Shown here piece by piece: positions 7,608 to 19,341 of a stretch of 39,092 nucleotides of DNA. The stretch lies in the IMG/VR virus record IMGVR_UViG_3300032293_000686, positions 1-39,092 of that record; one strand, 5' to 3'. The notes under the pieces were generated by a model. That model saw nothing but the letters and a program-made list of their open reading frames with translations, ran no database searches and had not been told where the DNA came from. A program made the position numbers and the translations under genes. This DNA is from a virus. Position 1 is the stretch's first letter. Each line of letters begins with the position of its first letter.

Positions 7608-7816
7608 TTCTTCCTCCCTCTCAAAACTGGATTATCCGGTCTGACGTACTTCGCCAGTTCCGCTCGTAACTCTTCGCTTCGATCTCTAAATCGCGTACGG
7701 TCTTTCGCCGTCGTCGCAAGCTGCGATTGAAGCGATTTGATTTCGCTTGTTTGCTCTGCGAGCAGTGCTTGTAAATGCTCGATTTCGCGAGCCATGTTCG
7801 TTAGGCTAATGGTCAT
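7604..7816 (-). CDS. Small coiled-coil protein
   Basis: This 70-residue protein is a single predicted coiled coil (about 8-56) with leucines at heptad spacing, followed by a basic tail ending RGRKK. It lies between DnaB (TAATG overlap) and the diphosphohydrolase-like gene (overlapping). It might be a helicase accessory or loader partner, but there is no motif to show it. Confidence 0.55.
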   Translation of the reverse strand: MTISLTNMAREIEHLQALLAEQTSEIKSLQSQLATTAKDRTRFRDRSEELRAELAKYVRPDNPVLRGRKK

Positions 7817-9129
7817 TAAAAGTCTCCGTGAAATGTTTCCGCGTCTTTGAACGCATCGCTGAACCGCTTGCCGTCGAACTTGAGGTTGAATCGCCCTACC
7901 TTGCCGTTTCGCTGCTTCTCAAGTAACACCGCGGCATCTTGAGCGTCCCGGCTTTCGCGGTGCAGCAGCATCACAATATCCGCATCCTGTTCGATTGCTC
8001 CTGAATCTCGCAGCATGTTAATACTAGGCTCTTCACCCTCAGCCGCCCGGCCCAACTGACACAACACCAGTAACGCGATATTGAGTTGCTTGCTGACTCT
8101 CGCAAGTTCGCCGCTTATCTGCGTCACCCGCTCGTAAATCTTTTGATGTGGACTGCTACCGCGAATCAGTCCGAGGTAGTCAACTATAACAAGCCTCACG
8201 CCACGCTTGGCAACCTCCGCCCTTAGCCGCGATTCGATGCGAGCCATCGAGATACCCGCCGCTTGCCACACGTACAACGGCAACTGCTTCGCTTCACTGC
8301 AAGCCTTGAGCATTCGCAAGCAATCCGCGTCAGTGTATGACGCATTCTGCATTTCACTAATACGCATGTCGGCGTTCTTTACGAATTGCCGCTGGCCGAT
8401 TTGCTGATTACTCATCTCAAGCGATACGAATAGCGTTTGATCGTTATTCGCCGCCGCGTTTTGTGCAATATCCATCGCCAGAGCCGACTTGCCTATCGAC
8501 GGTCTAGCGGCAAGGATCGCGTACGATCCAAGCGGTATTCCGCCACTTAGAGCGATGTCAATCTCCCTGAACCCAGTCCTCACTACCGCCGCTGTCCGCC
8601 TGTTTGCTCGTGCGTCTTCCAAAGTCTCAAGATACTGCCCCATCAAGTCGCCAAGGTGCTGAACATCTTCGCCGCCAATGCTCTTGGCTTTAAGTAAACG
8701 CTGCTGAGCGTTACTGACAACCGAATCAGGATCGAATGCAAGCGATGACGCCTCTGATACTGCCCACTCCAACGCCACCAATACCCGTCTACGCTCTGCC
8801 CATTCTGCTACCTGCTCCGAGTGATAGACGATGTGACCCGGTACGGTTTTCGTAACGAGATCAGCGAACCCAACATCGCCGCCGATCTTGTCGAATACGC
8901 CACGCTTGCGAAGTTCCGAAAGCATTACCGATTCGCGGTGAAACTCTACGCCATCTTTCGCCATCGCTTGGAATGCTTGCCATGCGTCCGCCATCGGTTG
9001 GTGGATGAAGTCGGCTGAATCCAGTGCATCGGCTACCGCGTAGAAGTCACCCGGACGTAGGATGATGCCCGCAATCAGTTGCTCTTCGATTGCTCGGCAT
9101 GTCTCAAAGTGGCTTGGATGTAGTGGCAT
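7816..9129 (-). CDS. dnaB: Replicative DNA helicase, DnaB family
   Basis: This 437-residue hexameric helicase unwinds DNA at the phage fork. The N-terminal helical domain (1-105) starts with an ATCRAIEEQLIAG-like pattern, a linker follows, and the RecA-type motor has Walker A ARPSIGKSA at 208-216, SLEMS at 236-240, Walker B LVIVDYLGLI at about 313-322, and an arginine-finger region in LRDSGAIEQDADIVMLLHR. The length is normal for the family. It directly follows the replication-initiator-like gene, with 0-base spacing, as in many phages where the initiator loads the helicase. Confidence 0.95.
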   Translation of the reverse strand: MPLHPSHFETCRAIEEQLIAGIILRPGDFYAVADALDSADFIHQPMADAWQAFQAMAKDGVEFHRESVMLSELRKRGVFDKIGGDVGFADLVTKTVPGHIVYHSEQVAEWAERRRVLVALEWAVSEASSLAFDPDSVVSNAQQRLLKAKSIGGEDVQHLGDLMGQYLETLEDARANRRTAAVVRTGFREIDIALSGGIPLGSYAILAARPSIGKSALAMDIAQNAAANNDQTLFVSLEMSNQQIGQRQFVKNADMRISEMQNASYTDADCLRMLKACSEAKQLPLYVWQAAGISMARIESRLRAEVAKRGVRLVIVDYLGLIRGSSPHQKIYERVTQISGELARVSKQLNIALLVLCQLGRAAEGEEPSINMLRDSGAIEQDADIVMLLHRESRDAQDAAVLLEKQRNGKVGRFNLKFDGKRFSDAFKDAETFHGDF

Positions 9130-9936
9130 TTACGCAGGCTCCCAGTTTTCGTCAATTACGGGCAATGTGGATTTTTTAGGCTTGGGTGACGTGTAGCCAC
9201 CTTGCCCTACGTTACTTGGGCGATACTCCGGCTTGATCCCTTGGTACTCGTTGCCGATGGCGAACTCGATTGCGTATATCAAGTGAGATGGACTGTCGTA
9301 GCCTCTTAGGGACTTCGAAACGTTCGCCCGGCTCTTGATCTTCTTGCCTATGCTCGCTCGCATGGCTTCAAAGTCACTTAGGGCTTGTCTCACCTCTGGG
9401 GTATCGAACCCGTCCGGTATGTCCCATTCGCCTAGCGAAGCCGCTTTGCTTGTCCCCTTAGGGGGTAGGGGGTTATTAATCTTTGGAAGTAGGACGTTGG
9501 AAGTAGGAAGTAGGGAGCATTGCGTTGGCATTGCGTTCGCATATGCGTTCGCATTGCGTTCGCATCCGTCATTTTCCGGCCGTAATTTCGGATTCCCTTT
9601 GTTTTCCTTGCTCCATCGCTGTTCGGCCGATCTTTTCGCCTTCTCGATGATCTCAAGCTTTTTCGCTCGTTCGATCTCAAGTCGCTCGTTGTACAGTTCT
9701 CCAGCATTGCCAACGCATAGCTTTCGCATAACCGAACGCATATGCGTTCGCATTGCGTTCGCATCGACTCCAGCAATCTTACAAAGAGTCGGCTCGTCAT
9801 CTGGAATTGACCCGTTCGACCATTGATAGCACAACAGGCGGATGTAGATACCGACCGCTTCCGCTTCCATGTGATAGGTGCCAGCGATGAAGTCATCAGC
9901 AAAGAAATCGAACGAGGGCGGTTTTTTACGCGCCAT
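9130..9936 (-). CDS. DUF1376-type replication initiator/helicase loader
   Basis: This 268-residue protein carries an N-terminal DUF1376-like domain (about 5-95), with the pattern FDFFADDFIAGTYHMEAEA and YIRLLCYQW that resembles a winged-helix DNA-binding fold, then a charged linker rich in Asn and Ala, and a C-terminal domain (about 175-245) of the type seen in phage helicase loaders. I chose the ATG at 9936, preceded by AGGTG, over an earlier start at 9966. It overlaps the HNH gene by 11 bases and leads directly into dnaB. The linker is encoded by the iteron-like repeats listed separately, as in lambda O where the origin lies inside the initiator gene. Confidence 0.8.
   Translation of the reverse strand: MARKKPPSFDFFADDFIAGTYHMEAEAVGIYIRLLCYQWSNGSIPDDEPTLCKIAGVDANAMRTHMRSVMRKLCVGNAGELYNERLEIERAKKLEIIEKAKRSAEQRWSKENKGNPKLRPENDGCERNANAYANAMPTQCSLLPTSNVLLPKINNPLPPKGTSKAASLGEWDIPDGFDTPEVRQALSDFEAMRASIGKKIKSRANVSKSLRGYDSPSHLIYAIEFAIGNEYQGIKPEYRPSNVGQGGYTSPKPKKSTLPVIDENWEPA
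9485..9565. repeat. Iteron-like repeat cluster, candidate replication origin
   Basis: Four near-tandem copies of TGCGTTCGCAT start at 9521 (one mismatch), 9532, 9544 and 9555, spaced 11, 12 and 11 bases. Each copy is itself an interrupted palindrome. Just before them, GGAAGTAGG-type repeats occur three times between 9485 and 9513. All lie inside the replication initiator gene, where lambda-like phages keep their origin. They also encode an Asn-Ala-rich stretch, so a purely coding explanation is possible. Confidence 0.5.
9733..9764. repeat. Second iteron group with perfect 18-bp palindrome
   Basis: The palindrome CGAACGCATATGCGTTCG occupies 9733-9750 and overlaps two direct copies of TGCGTTCGCAT at 9743 and 9754. 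This is the same unit as in the cluster about 180 bases away, giving six forward copies plus one inverted within the initiator gene. It may be a second initiator-binding block. Confidence 0.45.
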
Positions 9937-10225
9937 ATGTGCACCTGTCGCAAGTTGGTGATCCATTTTTGATATGCCTTGCTTTCAACGCCACCCGCCC
10001 GCACTTTTCGCACCTATGCTTATCGCAGTGGCATTCGTGGCATATGTGGACAAGGTTCTCCGGTGGATCGTATTCGCCCCATTTGCAGTAACGGATGTGG
10101 TGAAACTCCGTCGCGGTTTTCGTCCTGCAAGACTCGCATGTTCCTCCGGATCGCTCCTCGACAATGCCGCAAGCCCATCGGAATTGATCGGTGGATAGGT
10201 ACTCTTCATATGTCGCGTAACTCAT
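9926..10225 (-). CDS. HNH endonuclease with zinc ribbon tail
   Basis: This 99-residue protein contains a CESC pair, the HNH segment EFHHIRY, PENLVHICHECH with the central Asn and last His, and then two more CxxC pairs (CEKC and CDRC) forming a C-terminal zinc ribbon. Numbering is from the ATG at 10225, which overlaps the stop of the preceding gene (ATGA); the frame is open further upstream but inside that gene. Probably a nuclease, either a homing type or a recombination or packaging helper. Confidence 0.8.
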   Translation of the reverse strand: MSYATYEEYLSTDQFRWACGIVEERSGGTCESCRTKTATEFHHIRYCKWGEYDPPENLVHICHECHCDKHRCEKCGRVALKARHIKNGSPTCDRCTYGA

Positions 10226-11640
10226 CTTGCGTATCCTTTCGGCTGGCCCTTTGGTAACTTCATCCCTGGCCTTGAAAGCCCAAGGTTTTCTTTGAGATAG
10301 TAGGGGACTCCAGCCTGCTTGCATTGCGTGACAACATCGAAAACCCAATCAAAATCCGGCGCAAACTCCTCAACCCGTCCATCCGGCTGATTCGTCGATG
10401 TTTGCGAACCGATTACAACCAAGTTACACCAAGAAAGATCGTTAAACCGAATCGTCTCAAGCATTGGCTCAAGACTGATCCACCGAACCACCTTGTCGCT
10501 AGTGATTTTTTGCATATCGGACTCGACCCGCTTAACGTCAGACTGCTGGATCACGGACGCACCGTACCAAGCATTTTCAATCAACGGCATTTTCGAATAC
10601 CTCGCTGGCCACTTCGTGAGAAACAAATACTCCCATTGAGGCGACTTGATGCAAGCATCGAAAACCGACTCAATCCATGCATCAGGAACCCACTTGCCGA
10701 ACAAGTCGGCCATTGAGCATACAAACACCCGCCCGTCTCTCGGATCGCTTGAATCGGGCTTTGCCGTGTTTCTTGGGGCTGCCAGCCTGTAGCCGTGATA
10801 CGTCGGCTCAAACTTGTTAGGGTAGTAGTCTGCCATTCGCTCCGAGTGTGCGATTTCCCTAGCGTAGCAAAACTTGCATCCATGCTCGCACCCTGTGACC
10901 GGATTCCAAGTCCAAGAGGCCCAATCGACCGAATCATTTGTCTGATTAAAAACCACTTTCTTCGGCATTGGAATCAAAGTCTCCTTGCCGGTCGCCGTAA
11001 TGATAGGAACGAGGTTTTCCGATGGGGGTGAAGGATTTTCAATTGGCAACGCGGCTTTCTGCCTCTTAACCTTTTGAGCCTCCTTGTAGGCTTCCTCAAG
11101 CGTCGAATCGTCCTTCAGTTTCTCCGGTGCGTGCTCGGCAACGGTGGCAATCTTGTCAATTGACCTCCCGCTAGTACCGACCCGCTCGCCAACCTTGTCG
11201 CGGGATTTGCCGGTGTCGGTCAAGGCGGTGGAAATGTTTCCACTACCTACTTGCTGCCCTGGCTTTGCCTGGGTTGACTCCATGCGTTTTTTTGCTTGCT
11301 GCTTTTCATGGTCGACCCAAGCCAAGCCAAAAACAGCGAGTTGCTTTGTGCTCAAGTGCCTTCGAGCGATATTCTTCGAGAACGCCACCTCCCAAGGATC
11401 GGAAGTCGTTTTGATGAATCTAGGCTCGATCTTGCCTCTGTAGCAAGCCATCAATCGATTGCGACCGTCAAGCAGTTGCCCATCCGAGGTTAGGACGATA
11501 TCCTCCATCAGTCCCTTAAATGCAATGTCTTGCTCTAGTTTCTCTCTGTCTTCATCGCTGATTTCAGGCACCGCCAAGCATGCCGGATGTACGGCCGTAA
11601 TCTCTGGGTAGTGAATCAGGATGTCGTTAAGCGTTTCCAT
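10222..11640 (-). CDS. ParB-like domain fused to three-Cys radical SAM (Gp37/Gp68) domain
   Basis: This 472-residue protein joins two modules. Residues about 15-115 match a ParB/Spo0J-type N-terminal domain, with GQLLDGRNRLMA at 55-65 and a helix starting HLSTKQLA, followed by a helix-turn-helix-like segment (about 146-165) and a charged linker. Residues about 235-465 match the phage Gp37/Gp68 (DUF5131) family with the CEHGCKFCYA motif; Cys251, Cys255 and Cys258 form the CxxxCxxC iron-sulphur site of radical SAM enzymes. The partner gene typical of this family, TcmP, lies directly upstream with a 14-base overlap. The substrate is unknown; DNA targeting by the ParB part is inference. ATG with GGAGG upstream. 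Confidence 0.8.
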   Translation of the reverse strand: METLNDILIHYPEITAVHPACLAVPEISDEDREKLEQDIAFKGLMEDIVLTSDGQLLDGRNRLMACYRGKIEPRFIKTTSDPWEVAFSKNIARRHLSTKQLAVFGLAWVDHEKQQAKKRMESTQAKPGQQVGSGNISTALTDTGKSRDKVGERVGTSGRSIDKIATVAEHAPEKLKDDSTLEEAYKEAQKVKRQKAALPIENPSPPSENLVPIITATGKETLIPMPKKVVFNQTNDSVDWASWTWNPVTGCEHGCKFCYAREIAHSERMADYYPNKFEPTYHGYRLAAPRNTAKPDSSDPRDGRVFVCSMADLFGKWVPDAWIESVFDACIKSPQWEYLFLTKWPARYSKMPLIENAWYGASVIQQSDVKRVESDMQKITSDKVVRWISLEPMLETIRFNDLSWCNLVVIGSQTSTNQPDGRVEEFAPDFDWVFDVVTQCKQAGVPYYLKENLGLSRPGMKLPKGQPKGYAR

Positions 11641-12439
11641 TGTATTCCTCCTTGGTTAAGAACAGTTGTTTTACTTGGTCATCGAAGGTTTCCCGCTGCG
11701 TTCGATAGCTAGCCGCCCCGACTCCCTTGGGCCAAAAACCAAACGCCTTCTTGGTTGCCATCGCCTGAAAGTCCTTCGCCCATGAAGACGGAAAACTTAG
11801 CAAGTACGCCCACATTGAAGCGTCGCTTTGCAGCCAAAACAGCATCGCGTCGTGATGCTTTGGGAGATGCAATGTAAGCATGTTGATATAGCCGAACCAT
11901 CCAAGACGCTCTTCATAGGATAGTCTTTTGGCACCGCCGACATTGCAGCCAAGCGTCACCAAGTAGTTTGTATGCCGATTCCAAGACGCCACGAAAGGCC
12001 CAGTCAACGGCATATGCGAAACCGCGTTCGGATCGCAATGCACAAAGACCGCTTGATTGTTTTCAAGCATCGGAAGCTCGTAGTTCCTGGCATCTCCATT
12101 GACCAATGCAACCTTGCTCTTGTCCATGTATTCGCAATTACTAGACAACTTCTCAAAGGTATAGATATCCTTCTCGATCACGTCGAGGCGAAAGTTAAAT
12201 CCCTTCGACTTTAGGTAACTCCCGTGCTTGTAAAGCATTCGAGGCGATGCTTTATGCGACCCGTCTTCCGGCTCGTGGCCATCTCCACCGCAAAGGTCTA
12301 CCATCAAGAATGGATTCGCCTTGCATGGAACATGGGGCCGATTGAGCGCAAGAACCCCAACGATTTTTCCAACCGCCTCATTAAGCAAAAAATGCTTGAA
12401 TGGAGTGCGATTGGATTTTCCGACTCCGTGCGTCTTCAT
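11627..12439 (-). CDS. TcmP-like three-Cys-motif partner protein
   Basis: This 270-residue protein has a methyltransferase-like beginning, MVDLCGGDG at about 46-54, an acidic end of strand 2 (DVIEKD), VNGDAR and FVHCDPNAV, resembling motifs I, II, III and IV of class I SAM-dependent enzymes. This matches the three-Cys-motif partner (TcmP) family, which accompanies Gp37/Gp68 radical SAM proteins, exactly the gene that follows. Function of the pair is unknown. I use the ATG at 12439 with AAGGG seven bases upstream; an in-frame TTG at 12445 is less likely. The leader upstream has an unusual interlocked repeat structure, so expression may be RNA-controlled. Confidence 0.65.
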   Translation of the reverse strand: MKTHGVGKSNRTPFKHFLLNEAVGKIVGVLALNRPHVPCKANPFLMVDLCGGDGHEPEDGSHKASPRMLYKHGSYLKSKGFNFRLDVIEKDIYTFEKLSSNCEYMDKSKVALVNGDARNYELPMLENNQAVFVHCDPNAVSHMPLTGPFVASWNRHTNYLVTLGCNVGGAKRLSYEERLGWFGYINMLTLHLPKHHDAMLFWLQSDASMWAYLLSFPSSWAKDFQAMATKKAFGFWPKGVGAASYRTQRETFDDQVKQLFLTKEEYNGNA

Positions 12440-12458
12440 ACGCAATCCCTTGTAAACC

Positions 12459-12548
12459 CTCCAGTGCCCTCGTTTTGCCCGCCAGTTGCGTGAGTACGCA
12501 AAGACACGAAGGCACTGGAGTTGTTTTGTGTTTTAGTCTGGCGGGCAA
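12459..12548 (-). ncRNA. Structured leader with interlocked inverted repeats (pseudoknot order)
   Basis: On the minus strand, segment A (12548-12538, 11 bases) pairs perfectly with A' (12485-12475), and segment B (12520-12507) pairs with B' (12472-12459) in 13 of 14 positions. The order A-B-A'-B' is that of a pseudoknot. Between A and B lies a 17-nt A-rich single strand; between B and A' lies a perfect 6-bp hairpin TTGCGT-ACTC-ACGCAA (12501-12486). A candidate promoter is just upstream and the TcmP-like start codon is 20 bases downstream. It could be a regulatory leader, a stable small RNA or a DNA-level protein-binding site. Confidence 0.55.
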
Positions 12549-12561
12549 GCCATTTCGCTAA

Positions 12562-12596
12562 ATTGTACTTTTCGTCAATCCGTAGGCATATGCCTA
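12562..12596 (-). promoter_or_regulatory. Candidate promoter with 14-bp palindromic operator
   Basis: The perfect palindrome TAGGCATATGCCTA lies at 12596-12583 and is followed on the minus strand by TACAAT at 12567-12562, a good -10 element. No good -35 hexamer exists at the right distance; the palindrome covers that place, so an activator or repressor may bind it. The predicted start near 12555 would put segment A of the structured leader at the very 5' end of the transcript. Confidence 0.4.
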
Positions 12597-12612
12597 GTCG
12601 AAAGAACGCCCC

Positions 12613-12744
12613 GCCCCTTTCGGGGCAGGACGTGGAGGTTGATACGGTAGTTAGGTGAGACACCGGCACTTACCGCGCACCAGCCCGTTTGGCGGGATTC
12701 CTGCCCCATGAAAGCAGGCACCTTTGCCCAGGCGAGCCAACCTG
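12613..12744 (-). other. Hairpin-rich intergenic block downstream of methyltransferase
   Basis: After the methyltransferase stop the minus strand contains a row of short perfect stems: CAGG/CCTG (12744-12729), GGCA-AAGG-TGCC (12728-12717), CCTGC/GCAGG (12718-12700, competing with the previous one), CCCG-CCAAA-CGGG (12696-12684), a nested CGGTA/TACCG enclosing GGTG-TCT-CACC (12675-12645), and GCCCC-GAAA-GGGGC (12626-12613). The last has a weak T-rich tail and may terminate transcription. No protein-coding frame is convincing. It may be a structured RNA or just a 3' untranslated region. Confidence 0.45.
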
Positions 12745-14097
12745 TTAGTCGAAGAGGGTAGGTTGACGAGGCTTGTCGGCTTCGCGCTGAATCCTTGCCC
12801 GTGCAATCTCGATGTATTCCGCTTCTCGCTCAATGCCGATAAACCGAAAGCCTTCGAGGATTGCCGCCTTCCCGGTTGATCCCGAACCCGTGAAGGGATC
12901 GAGTACAATTCCGCCCGGTGGAGTTACAAGCCTGCATAGGTATCGCATCAGGTCAGTCGGCTTGACTGTTGGGTGGTGGTTGCGAGATGCGGCTTTGAAT
13001 CGATCTCTGTTGCAGCCTTCGTCGTCTATTGGCATCGCGCCACCCATTCCGCTCTGGTGAACCCTCAGTTCCATCGCCTCGCACCCTGCATCCCTGTCCG
13101 CTTTGCTTGCCTTGGCGGTGTAGAAAAACCGGGCTGCAGAACCCTGGTCGCCGTTCCAGTAAATCGGCTTTGGTTTTAATCCTCCGCCATTTCCTGGAGA
13201 CCACATAGACTCGTCACCACTCGGAGTCTGACCTCTCCAGTTTCCACTTTTTGTTACCGGGAAAAGCTGCAGAACCTCATCGCTTCCATCGTGGATGAAG
13301 TTTGCAGGCCATCGGCCAAGTTCCATTTTTTCAAGGTACGGCTGCAGCGATGCTGGCCCGTTGTCAAACTTTCCGTATGCAGTTCGGTTTTTATTTTGAT
13401 CCTGGCACGCCCTTTGCGCTGCTGCTGCTGCTGCTGCTGCTGATTCCATGTCACTGGATGAGACAAAACCCACCCTGCAACCGTCCACGTTTAAACCCCC
13501 TGTGCCATGCTCTAGCACGTTCGCCGCTACGGTTGAGGCGAAAGGCTTGCGAGCCATTGTGACTGGCTCAAACGCCGGTTTAAGAGCCGTCCCCCATCCT
13601 TGCCACTGCTTAGCGGCTTCGGTTGCGGGTATCTCGACGCCCGGTTGATACTCCCTGCCATTGTCTTTGATCCAACTGCCCGTCTTGTCCTGATCCGCGC
13701 CGGGAATCATCCGCTTAACTGGATCACCCACAGGAATCTTTTTCCGCTCTGCCCCTGCTGCCTTATCAATCGCCTTGCTGATATCGTGCGACTTTGGGAA
13801 CCCTGAGCCGTAGACCCATGCAATCAAATCACGGATCTCGAATCCGGCATCCTCGATTCTTACTGCCATTCGGTGCTGCGTTCGAGTACCCGCAAAGGCT
13901 AGCAAGTGTCCGCCAGGTTTGAGAACCCGCAAGCATTCCTGCCAAACCTCAACGGCTGGCACGTCGTAATCCCATCGCTTACCCATAAAGGATAAGCCGT
14001 ACGGTGGATCCGTAACGACTGCATCGACCGAACAATCGGGAAGCGTTTTAAGCACCTCCAAGCAATCGCCGTGATGCAGTTGGTATCTACTCTCCAT
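12745..14097 (-). CDS. Site-specific DNA methyltransferase (TDPPYG, beta-type order)
   Basis: This 450-residue amino-methyltransferase has the catalytic motif TDPPYG at about 29-34 and the SAM-binding motif DPFTGSGST near residue 405, giving the catalytic-first order of the N4/N6 DNA methylase family. DPPY favours N6-adenine. The roughly 300-residue insert between the motifs includes GWGTALKPAFEPV, typical of many phage enzymes, and a run of eight or nine alanines encoded by a triplet microsatellite. No restriction enzyme is next to it, so it is probably an orphan enzyme protecting or regulating phage DNA. The ATG at 14097 has GGAGG nine bases upstream; a TTG three codons earlier is less likely. 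Confidence 0.9.
   Translation of the reverse strand: MESRYQLHHGDCLEVLKTLPDCSVDAVVTDPPYGLSFMGKRWDYDVPAVEVWQECLRVLKPGGHLLAFAGTRTQHRMAVRIEDAGFEIRDLIAWVYGSGFPKSHDISKAIDKAAGAERKKIPVGDPVKRMIPGADQDKTGSWIKDNGREYQPGVEIPATEAAKQWQGWGTALKPAFEPVTMARKPFASTVAANVLEHGTGGLNVDGCRVGFVSSSDMESAAAAAAAAQRACQDQNKNRTAYGKFDNGPASLQPYLEKMELGRWPANFIHDGSDEVLQLFPVTKSGNWRGQTPSGDESMWSPGNGGGLKPKPIYWNGDQGSAARFFYTAKASKADRDAGCEAMELRVHQSGMGGAMPIDDEGCNRDRFKAASRNHHPTVKPTDLMRYLCRLVTPPGGIVLDPFTGSGSTGKAAILEGFRFIGIEREAEYIEIARARIQREADKPRQPTLFD
13418..13441. repeat. Trinucleotide microsatellite (GCT)8
   Basis: Eight uninterrupted GCT triplets on the plus strand encode most of the polyalanine run of the DNA methyltransferase on the other strand. 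Length changes would add or remove alanines without breaking the frame. Confidence 0.85.
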
Positions 14098-16617: not shown

Positions 16618-17709
16618 CTACACCCTCGCCATCGGCATAATAACCCCAAGAACATCACCGGAAGCTAGTACAACCGGATCGCCTGAATTCTTGTACTTAA
16701 CTTCCACCGTTTGCTCTTTGCCGAGCGAACGAAGGAAGTCTGCAAGGTACGTATGATCGACGGTTAACTTTGCCGCCGTGTCCGCCTCGCATCCCATCAC
16801 AACGCTAGATGCTCCAACCTCGGCTGTCTTCGCAGTCGCGGTCAGTTCGCCGCTACTGATAACAAGGTCGATGCCCCGGCTATCTTGATCGTTAACGATT
16901 GCCGCTTGACGAACCACGCTCAAGAACTTCTCGGCATCGCATCGAAGCGTAGATGCTCCATCAGTCGATGGCACAACCTTCCGCCAGTCTGGATATCGCC
17001 CTTCAACTAATCGCGTCTGTAGCGAAATGTCGCCGCATACGAACACCGCCGAACGGTTGTCGATCATTACATCAACTCCGCATCCCTCAGCCGCTATGAT
17101 GCGTGAGACGGCCTGTAGTGGGCGAATAGGCACAATGCCGCTTACCGCTGCAACCTGCCCCGCTAACTGGCAAGATGATACCGCAAGCCTTCGCCCGTCA
17201 GTTGCAACGCAAGTGAGCCTCTCGCCAATGTCGACTAGCACTCCGCCGAGTTGATACCGCGTAGATGTTAAGTCTGTTGCGTAGATCGTTTGACGGATCG
17301 CATCAGCTAACGCAACGCCCGGTACTCCCGCCGCTCCCTCTGCCGCGTCAATCTTGACCGAGGGAAACTCATCAGGGTTAGGCATCGAGAGACTGAACCC
17401 GCCGGATTGCGTTGTGATCCGCAATTGGTTATCTACCTCGATATCGACCGAATCGCCGCCGCAATCCTTGAGGATCGGTATTACCTTCGAGGGGAGCAGT
17501 AACGCTTTGCCCGGACTCGAAACGTATTGAGCCGCATCGGCGACATCGCAAACGATTGACAGTTCATTGTCGGTCGCCTGCATGTTCTTTGATTCGTCGC
17601 AAGTAAACTTGACGTACCTCAAAACTTCGTTTTGCGGCTTGCTTCCAACAATCGACGCCGCGATTTCGAGCGACTTTAAGAACGGGACTCTTTGTACTGT
17701 GACTTTCAT
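16618..17709 (-). CDS. dnaN: DNA polymerase III beta subunit (sliding clamp)
   Basis: This 363-residue protein matches bacterial DnaN in length and layout: three repeated clamp domains, with QLGGVLVDIGERLTCVATDG typical of domain 2 and the C-terminal VVLASGDVLGVIMPMARV that ends every beta clamp and forms part of the partner-binding pocket. It would encircle DNA and tether a polymerase or nucleases. No polymerase is encoded in the window, so it probably works with the host replicase or redirects it. The ATG at 17709 has GGAGG upstream. The leader before it contains a candidate RNA switch and a small overlapping lipoprotein-like reading frame. Confidence 0.9.
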   Translation of the reverse strand: MKVTVQRVPFLKSLEIAASIVGSKPQNEVLRYVKFTCDESKNMQATDNELSIVCDVADAAQYVSSPGKALLLPSKVIPILKDCGGDSVDIEVDNQLRITTQSGGFSLSMPNPDEFPSVKIDAAEGAAGVPGVALADAIRQTIYATDLTSTRYQLGGVLVDIGERLTCVATDGRRLAVSSCQLAGQVAAVSGIVPIRPLQAVSRIIAAEGCGVDVMIDNRSAVFVCGDISLQTRLVEGRYPDWRKVVPSTDGASTLRCDAEKFLSVVRQAAIVNDQDSRGIDLVISSGELTATAKTAEVGASSVVMGCEADTAAKLTVDHTYLADFLRSLGKEQTVEVKYKNSGDPVVLASGDVLGVIMPMARV

Positions 17710-17791
17710 ACCTAACCTCCATAAGATCATAAACAACCGGCTTTGCTTGGCATCCTGCCAGCATCGCCAACAATAAAACTAAACGCATCAT
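17564..17791 (-). CDS. Small lipoprotein-like reading frame overlapping the clamp gene
   Basis: The frame encodes up to 75 residues. It starts MMRLVLLLAMLAGCQAK, a basic residue, a hydrophobic stretch and a lipobox LAGC, then runs into the clamp gene in another frame. The start has the strongest possible ribosome site, GGAGG five bases from the first ATG and eight from the second. The part after residue about 28 is out-of-frame clamp sequence with no sign of selection visible to me. It may be a tiny lipoprotein (Rz1-like overlap) or a leader peptide that couples ribosomes to the clamp start. Confidence 0.45.
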   Translation of the reverse strand: MMRLVLLLAMLAGCQAKPVVYDLMEVRYESHSTKSPVLKVARNRGVDCWKQAAKRSFEVRQVYLRRIKEHAGDRQ

Positions 17792-17890: not shown

Positions 17891-18535
17891 TTACTCGAAC
17901 TCTTTTCGCATCGCTTCGACGATGCCGCCGACTCGTTTCACTGGAGTTGACTCAACGTCGATGACGTCTCTTGCTTCGTCATCCGTTGCAATGCCTAGCG
18001 ACAACTCAGGAGCATACGCCCGAACGAAAAACGATGCTGATCGATACCGCAACATTTGCTCCGGCATTGTCTTCCACTTCGAGCCGGACTTGTCAAACCA
18101 GCCCTCCGCTTTCGCCATCGCAATTGTAATCTCTGTTGACTCCAAGATTTCGCCAGTTGTACCGCATACCGCAGAGCAAACGCAACCGTAATCATCTTTG
18201 CCTTTACTGCCTGTGAAGCGATAACGAAGCGGACTAAACTTGCCGCTTGCGTTAGCAGTCGCAATCAAAAATTGACTCGACCACGCTGGCCGCCCATGAA
18301 CGATATACAAATTTTGCATTACCATCAGCGGATCAGCACCGAGCCGGTTAGCCATGTTTAGGGCAACCAGGCAGTTCGGCAAGTTGTTTTGGTAGTCCTT
18401 TGGAATCAACGTTGACTTACTCAATGCCGTTGCGACTCGTTGGGCAAGTGCAAACCCGTCTGAATCGCCTAGCCCTGCCTCAATAACCTTGACCGCTTCA
18501 ACGGGCTTTACTTCTGTTGTAATATCCGAACTCAT
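17891..18535 (-). CDS. recT: RecT family single-strand annealing protein
   Basis: This 214-residue protein matches RecT annealases, which coat single-stranded DNA and pair it with a complementary strand. Typical features are the ALNMANRLGADPLMVMQNLY helix pair (about 53-72), GRPAWSSQFLIATAN, the EILESTEITIAMAKAEGW stretch, and SGSKWKTMPEQMLRYRSASF. It is shorter than E. coli RecT (269) but of usual phage size. The start overlaps the stop of the RecE-like gene (TAATG) with GGAGG upstream; the pair forms a phage recombination system. Confidence 0.9.
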   Translation of the reverse strand: MSSDITTEVKPVEAVKVIEAGLGDSDGFALAQRVATALSKSTLIPKDYQNNLPNCLVALNMANRLGADPLMVMQNLYIVHGRPAWSSQFLIATANASGKFSPLRYRFTGSKGKDDYGCVCSAVCGTTGEILESTEITIAMAKAEGWFDKSGSKWKTMPEQMLRYRSASFFVRAYAPELSLGIATDDEARDVIDVESTPVKRVGGIVEAMRKEFE

Positions 18536-19341
18536 TATCGCCTCCTAGATGGTAAACACAACACAACCTCGCCGACTTGCCAATCTGCAAGCCAGTCATT
18601 TTCTTCCACTCTTCGCCGGTACTCTGCAATCAACGCATGGTACTCGTCACGCCCTTGCTCGATGTCGTCTTCGCTCAACTTGTAAACCGCGACTTCGTAC
18701 GGCTCCGTTTTGCTGACAACGCCAAACAAAAACCGAAAAGGCTTGCCATACATTGCCTCAAGCGTATCTAGGTAGATCGCGGCTTGCCGATGATATCCGA
18801 AATCCAACGCTGACCATCGCCACTTCGATGGGCTTGCATCTTGCGTTGTCTTTAGGTCGAGGATGACCGACTGCCCGACAATCACGCAATCCGGTTTGCA
18901 CTTAAGCGAAGTCGTCCAGCCGTCATCGTGACGCCAAGTCATCGAGTAAGGCCGCTCAAAGTCGCATTCGTGACCCATCAGGTCGGCGATTGTAGCGTGA
19001 GACTGAAACGCGTTTGCAATCTTCTTAACCTCGTCGAACTCGTCTTGCATGATCCACTTAGAGGACGGGTCAATCGTCGTCAACCACTCCTCAAACGCTT
19101 TGGTATCGCGTCCGTAACTCTTGCCGGTCTTCGGGTTAATCGGCCCTTCGTGAATGTCGTATTCTTGATGGAATCGGTCAGGCTCAAGTGCAAGCATGTG
19201 AACCGCTGAACCCAATGCCATCGCTTCCGTTTCCTCGCCCTTCATCGTCTTTGCGACGTATTGAGCGTGAAAGCTTTGCGGACTCTTCGCAAGGACGGAA
19301 AGCGAACTGTTGCTTAGTGCGTCGATCTCGTAGTAGTTCAC
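18535..19341 (-). CDS. RecE-like exonuclease, PD-(D/E)XK fold
   Basis: This 268-residue protein resembles the nuclease core of RecE (exonuclease VIII). It has the N-terminal YYEIDALSNSSLSVLAKSP region, GSAVH at 44-48, KPD at 149-151 and LDLKTT at 161-166, supplying the acid-x-lysine catalytic pair, then a helix with YHRQAAIY that is typical of the family. It would chew double-stranded ends to expose single strands for RecT, the next gene. It starts with GTG in a GTGA overlap with the gene upstream. Confidence 0.88.
   Translation of the reverse strand: MNYYEIDALSNSSLSVLAKSPQSFHAQYVAKTMKGEETEAMALGSAVHMLALEPDRFHQEYDIHEGPINPKTGKSYGRDTKAFEEWLTTIDPSSKWIMQDEFDEVKKIANAFQSHATIADLMGHECDFERPYSMTWRHDDGWTTSLKCKPDCVIVGQSVILDLKTTQDASPSKWRWSALDFGYHRQAAIYLDTLEAMYGKPFRFLFGVVSKTEPYEVAVYKLSEDDIEQGRDEYHALIAEYRRRVEENDWLADWQVGEVVLCLPSRRR

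Follow-up and report, generated by a model that had tools for sequence, protein, structure and literature searches.

What does a 90-nt stretch carrying two long, interlocked inverted repeats do just ahead of the first gene of a phage replication operon? The stretch (12459-12548) belongs to a viral DNA of 39,092 nt, IMG/VR record IMGVR_UViG_3300032293_000686, analysed over its whole length and called the window here. A sequence-only reading had proposed a candidate pseudoknot RNA or DNA element at this place, and the two inverted repeats, the 6-bp hairpin and the 17-nt A-rich linker that it described are all present where it had put them. The surrounding genes are on the minus strand, which is therefore the strand of interest. 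Read 5' to 3' on that strand, the element and its surroundings are:

12583..12596, perfect 14-bp palindrome TAGGCATATGCCTA shortly before the -10 box, with no second copy in the window
12562..12567, minus strand, -10 box TACAAT, without a TTGACA-like -35
12538..12548, minus strand, S1a, the 5' arm of stem 1, UUGCCCGCCAG
12521..12537, minus strand, L1, a single-stranded A/C-rich linker of 17 nt
12506..12520, minus strand, S2a, the 5' arm of stem 2, CUCCAGUGCCUUCGU
12502..12504, minus strand, UCU right after S2a (GUCU separates S2a from the small hairpin), found in nearly all relatives
12486..12501, minus strand, small hairpin of 6 bp, UUGCGU-ACUC-ACGCAA, abutting S1b
12475..12485, minus strand, S1b, the 3' arm of stem 1, CUGGCGGGCAA
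12474, minus strand, L3, one A separating S1b from S2b
12459..12473, minus strand, S2b, the 3' arm of stem 2, ACGAGGGCACUGGAG
12454..12456, minus strand, terminator-like U-run after S2b, 3 U in the window
12447..12451, minus strand, Shine-Dalgarno-like AAGGG of the first gene
11627..12439, minus strand, first gene in the window, TcmP-like
10222-11640, minus strand, DUF5131 / rSAM_mob_pairA-like gene, paired with the TcmP-like gene
9130-9966, minus strand, primosomal/initiator-like protein of the replication operon
7816-9129, minus strand, DnaB helicase of the replication operon

S1 has 11 bp in the window. S2 had been described as 14 bp with one mismatch; the repeat is real and the mismatch is not, since C.A on the plus strand becomes G.U on the minus strand and S2 thus has 15 pairs. 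The TACAAT element lies 13 nt ahead of S1, and the interval from S2b to the ATG at 12439 (GGUUUACAAGGG on the minus strand) spans 19 nt.

We compared the arrangement with chance expectation. Under a strict definition (interlocked Watson-Crick pairs of at least 10 and at least 11 bp), matches were found in 2 of 300 first-order Markov versions of the window and in none of the 300 within 90 nt. When G.U pairs and loops of up to 60 nt were allowed, 60 of 200 shuffles contained one. The view that chance is a very unlikely explanation is therefore upheld by the strict definition and not by the loose one and, loose matches being so common in shuffles, it falls to the relatives to supply the deciding evidence.

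Protein queries (the TcmP-like and DUF5131 proteins and two DnaB proteins) and DNA patterns served to gather relatives from IMG/VR. The resulting contigs represent one poorly known phage group, with DnaB and TerL only about 30% identical to those of known phages; a genome scan returned distant relatives only. An interlocked-stem finder, which gave no match in 977 kb of shuffled window, located the element in about 50 IMG/VR contigs (count, 53), always on the coding strand and directly ahead of the first gene of the replication operon. Contigs without it mostly end before the site. In two, L098 and L102, the region is covered and the element is genuinely missing; it is therefore dispensable or replaceable. 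The loss of complementarity in phages that keep the flanking genes had been named beforehand as evidence against the element; these two contigs aside, most relatives retain the complementarity with new sequences.

The stems fall into about a dozen unrelated sequence types. Across 17 stem combinations, Watson-Crick pairs outnumber G.U pairs by 401 to 30. In MAFFT alignments, S2 shows double changes at 15 of its 16 pairs (covariation score 0.704, against 0.235 for shuffled alignments) and S1 shows changes on both sides at 7 of 10 pairs (0.597 against 0.169). The score of neither stem was attained in 500 shuffles, the signal of both was lost when the partners were slid by 1-3 columns, and RNAalifold recovered S1 unaided from the full alignment. 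The search for homologues and covariation that had been suggested as a check is thus decisive, both stems covarying, and it is nearly certain that 12459-12548 on the minus strand forms a genuine RNA pseudoknot with the interlocked order A-B-A'-B'. Where pairs deviate from Watson-Crick they are G.U on the coding strand, and would be A.C on the opposite strand, which identifies the coding-strand RNA as the functional molecule. As the length of the element, 81 to 95 nt among relatives, does not keep to multiples of three, it is non-coding.

These data also bear on the idea of a recombination or replication site in the DNA, be it an origin, a cruciform or a target of recombination. The adjacent replication genes, the long inverted repeats and the borders of the exchanged cassettes described below, which coincide exactly with the element, would suit such a site. 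An interlocked order, G.U departures and an A/C-rich linker that are specific to one strand, and a fixed place between the -10 box and the start codon do not, and we consider a DNA-level function very improbable. A switch between two alternative hairpins, likewise put forward, is not borne out either: S1 and S2 have no bases in common and are thus not mutually exclusive, and they are sterically compatible. An alternative 5' hairpin within S1a, set against S1, gave a permutation P of 0.024 in a loose search, a marginal value that leaves it unproven.

The fold is retained throughout the group within narrow limits. S1 comprises 9-14 bp, L1 13-18 nt (62% A, 26% C), S2 13-17 bp, usually with CCC at its start and GGG at its end, and L3 0-5 nt; UCU followed by a small hairpin abutting S1b is common to the relatives. 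Pseudoknot-free folding always yielded S2 and the small hairpin and missed S1. Crude A-form geometry permits both stems at once if S1, by its outer end, stacks against the inner end of S2, L1 then running along about 25 bp; the short L3 makes classic H-type stacking infeasible in most alleles under the same geometry.

HDV-like ribozymes have a 7-bp P1 and a catalytic C between P1' and P2'. Their order of parts (P1, P2, hairpin P3, P1', P2') is that of the present element, which differs by the 13-18-nt linker between S1a and S2a; an HDV-like ribozyme was rejected, S1 having 9-14 bp and L3, at 0-5 nt, having no invariant C. The window and eight relatives had no match in Rfam 15 at the gathering threshold, and scans of the window and L003 at weak E-values gave sub-threshold chance matches only. 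We used a covariance model, R1, to look for a wider distribution: in 740 kb of loci its matches were confined to this phage group, and it matched none of 150 unrelated genomes, a weak result as that scan had no positive control. A second scan, with the -10 pattern, gave mostly chance matches in other phages. Altogether, we put the probability that the locus encodes an RNA pseudoknot leader constituting a new family at about 0.95.

The leader sits close behind its own promoter. The -10 box precedes S1a by 8-13 nt in all relatives, which also have a common TAT(T/G)YCC-like motif at the -35 position. A scan for sigma70-like promoters on both strands of 12400-12780 found none, the presumed real promoter being missed by it as well. 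Some relatives have imperfect inverted repeats of other sequence in place of the palindrome TAGGCATATGCCTA, a possible operator at which a repressor or an activator could bind.

Further upstream (12608-12747, minus strand), between the stop codon of a methyltransferase gene and the promoter, lies another structured RNA, about 150 nt long. It contains an invariant CUGGUGCGCGGUA and covarying helices such as CCUGC/GCAGG, CCAACG/CGUUGG and CCCAUU/AAUGGG, has no match in Rfam, and is represented in relatives by 31 different sequences, among them that of L102, a contig without the pseudoknot. In L006 an HNH-endonuclease-like gene (797-1273) follows directly behind it; L016, L026, L027 and L030 have such a gene at the same position, and in all five contigs this insert separates the second structured RNA from the pseudoknot leader.

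The distance from the end of S2b to the AUG is 19-26 nt across relatives. The element is thus placed, in every relative, 8-13 nt behind the -10 box and just beyond the ribosome footprint, as would be expected of a passive 5' end module whose pseudoknot, by sequestering the 5' end within a few nt of the start, guards the replication mRNA against 5'-dependent decay and keeps the ribosome site accessible. Shape alone would matter to such a module and stem sequence would drift, in keeping with stems that vary freely in sequence while the structure is kept. It leaves the U-run unexplained, and the distribution of the alleles (see below) is not what it predicts. We rate this protective role as unlikely, although it ranks first among the rival explanations; below it, with decreasing likelihood, come a leader that senses a protein or ligand, an antiterminator resembling put, a DNA site and, last, a type III antitoxin.

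Which gene does the leader serve? The sequence-only reading had placed a regulatory leader before the TcmP-like gene; an RNA leader behind its own promoter, on the minus strand, stands, and the tie to that gene does not. In L006 and L007 the TcmP-DUF5131-HNH block is missing and the same leader abuts a replication-initiator gene, and the first genes of the remaining relatives are further replication-initiator, primosomal or unassigned types. As the leader persists ahead of varying first genes, it cannot be a TcmP element. Leader types and first genes are also reassorted: L027 has the leader of L016 and the gene of L006, and L028 has the leader of L024 and the gene of L016, which shows that the leader belongs to the operon, with its helicase loader/initiator and DnaB, and not to a single protein. 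The TcmP-like protein had no match in Pfam, NCBIfam or PHROG. The block at 10222-12439 (minus strand), a TcmP-like and ParB/DUF5131 radical-SAM-like pair with an HNH gene, is present or absent ahead of the replication genes. The phage also has a sliding-clamp-like DNA polymerase processivity factor, RecT and an exonuclease VIII-like protein (16618-17736 and 17891-19341, minus strand).

The interchangeable first gene weighs on two further explanations. In T4, T2 and RB69, the gene 32 leader contains a pseudoknot and gp32 binds its own leader to repress translation; a report from 2010 calls it possibly the sole viral pseudoknot used in translational autoregulation (PMC3014915). Here too a pseudoknot lies upstream of the start of a phage replication gene, with much longer stems and an extra hairpin. 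An autogenous leader of the gene 32 type was rejected, since phages that carry one and the same leader allele have different first genes. A broader version, in which a phage replication protein or a metabolite is bound through the conserved single-stranded A-rich L1 and UCU, draws on the fact that these are the most conserved unpaired parts and that the operon codes for nucleic-acid-binding replication proteins. Autogenous control by the freely swapped first gene is excluded for it as well, the conserved positions are few for a ligand pocket, and alleles differ in their stems rather than in the conserved loops; we find such a sensing leader slightly less probable than the protective role.

A type III toxin-antitoxin system, with the pseudoknot as RNA antitoxin and the downstream gene as its partner, would have the same order of promoter, pseudoknot RNA, terminator-like stem and gene, an order described for the antitoxin RNAs ToxI and CptI (PMC5086642). 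That order is all they have in common. The present element has longer stems and occurs in single copy, not as tandem repeats, in the window and its relatives, and the variable downstream gene, of initiator/helicase-loader or TcmP-like type, matches no endoribonuclease or toxin family. We hardly credit this explanation.

We compared the alleles in 16 contigs whose DnaB genes are 87-90% identical. Leaders of the same type are 99-100% identical and those of different types 58-76% (shuffled control, 54 +/- 6%), in contigs whose promoters are 88-96% identical. In the clearest case, L006 and L027 have unrelated pseudoknots despite near-identical flanks, with 24 of the last 25 bases upstream and 398 of 400 downstream identical, and a single dataset, 3300042914, contains several leader types (L033, L047 and L101). 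Leader alleles are thus swapped as cassettes between otherwise near-identical flanks. A passive module predicts gradual drift, and these alleles are discrete and internally conserved. We infer that they are closer to immunity or incompatibility loci than to neutral drift under structural constraint; the identity within alleles could also reflect recent spread instead of selection.

In relatives S2b is followed by N-UUU, with a T frequency of 0.86-0.91 at +2 to +4, about 0.5 at +5 to +7 and about 0.05 just beyond. The U-run is present in nearly every allele, with up to 6 U, and is short or lost in L002 (GUCUCAC) and L033 (CUUAUC). Given this U-run, the locus may yield the stable phage RNA suggested earlier. 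The U-run also suggests the opposite of the activity of a cis-acting put-type antitermination RNA, whose fold binds RNA polymerase so that it ignores the terminators of the operon. A near-terminal position ahead of a long phage operon, a complex fold and independence of the first gene would fit such an RNA; the stems, its presumed polymerase contacts, are unrelated between alleles, and we think it improbable.

The best-supported reading is that of a pseudoknotted leader RNA at the 5' terminus, by which the replication operon is controlled. As its mechanism we tentatively propose attenuation together with allele-specific recognition, to which we give slightly less than an even chance; the terminator-like stem S2 is probably the route of attenuation. 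Transcription would start a few nt ahead of S1a. Folding of the small hairpin would be followed by pairing of S1a with S1b over the A-rich linker and then of S2a with S2b, giving a rod of about 25 bp whose pairs are those that covary and alongside which the A/C-rich linker is predicted to lie. Because the GC-rich S2 directly precedes the U-run, RNA polymerase may pause or terminate there and release an RNA of 90-100 nt. Termination at S2 would attenuate the initiator and helicase genes, and readthrough would express them. The stem sequence itself may be recognised, either by a cognate factor or by an RNA that the same allele supplies in trans, as alleles that are conserved within and cassette-swapped between identical flanks suggest. 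The A-rich run preceding S2a counts for an attenuator, and the pattern of GC-rich stem and U-run is seen in most alleles, L002 and L033 having lost it. Against attenuation, some members have a short U-run, the window with its UUU among them, for which the case is weak, and the terminator "loop" of about 35 nt, partly paired, is unusually long for an intrinsic terminator. A trans partner with long complementarity was not found in the window, which contains only scattered 11-mers.

Structured leaders are already known from phage and plasmid replication genes, and the fold described here matches no Rfam family. In the replication operon of phage P4, likewise headed by a structured leader, pairing of a leader RNA causes premature transcription termination and sets immunity, as summarised in PMC4825925. 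There the processed CI RNA pairs with seqA and seqC, whereas here two interlocked pairs are self-complementary; a P4-type third complementary copy (at least 11 nt, in the right place) is absent from the window. Unlike in P4, no lysogeny gene was seen; the large ORFs of the window and the families tested included no integrase, so that classical prophage immunity is not indicated. The repZ leader of ColIb-P9 (IncI/IncB) and the repA leader of IncL/M plasmids also contain a pseudoknot, in the mRNA of the initiator, and the RNA sequence determines incompatibility, according to works cited in PMC10724649. In those plasmids a countertranscript RNA competes with the pseudoknot; here the topology differs, and no antisense gene came to light in the promoter scan of 12400-12780, which also overlooked the presumed real promoter. 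Neither P4 CI, repZ/repA, gene 32 nor the type III antitoxins match in topology or in all defining features, and a full-text literature search, with subscription journals mostly outside its scope, returned no description of this element or fold.

A more specific possibility, which we hold to be unlikely on present evidence, is that the leader RNA released by one allele acts as a repressor on the replication operon of any phage sharing that allele, so that RNA self-recognition types would mediate superinfection or copy-number exclusion. Frequency-dependent selection would then maintain many stem alleles per population while the fold remained fixed. A fixed fold, total change of the stems and precise cassette exchange are the expected signature of self/non-self RNA recognition and, if this is true, these phages would possess an RNA incompatibility system comparable to those of plasmids. 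The persistence of one fold through exchanges of its stem sequences, among phages that are otherwise alike on either side of it, points to a form of RNA control of phage replication that is new.
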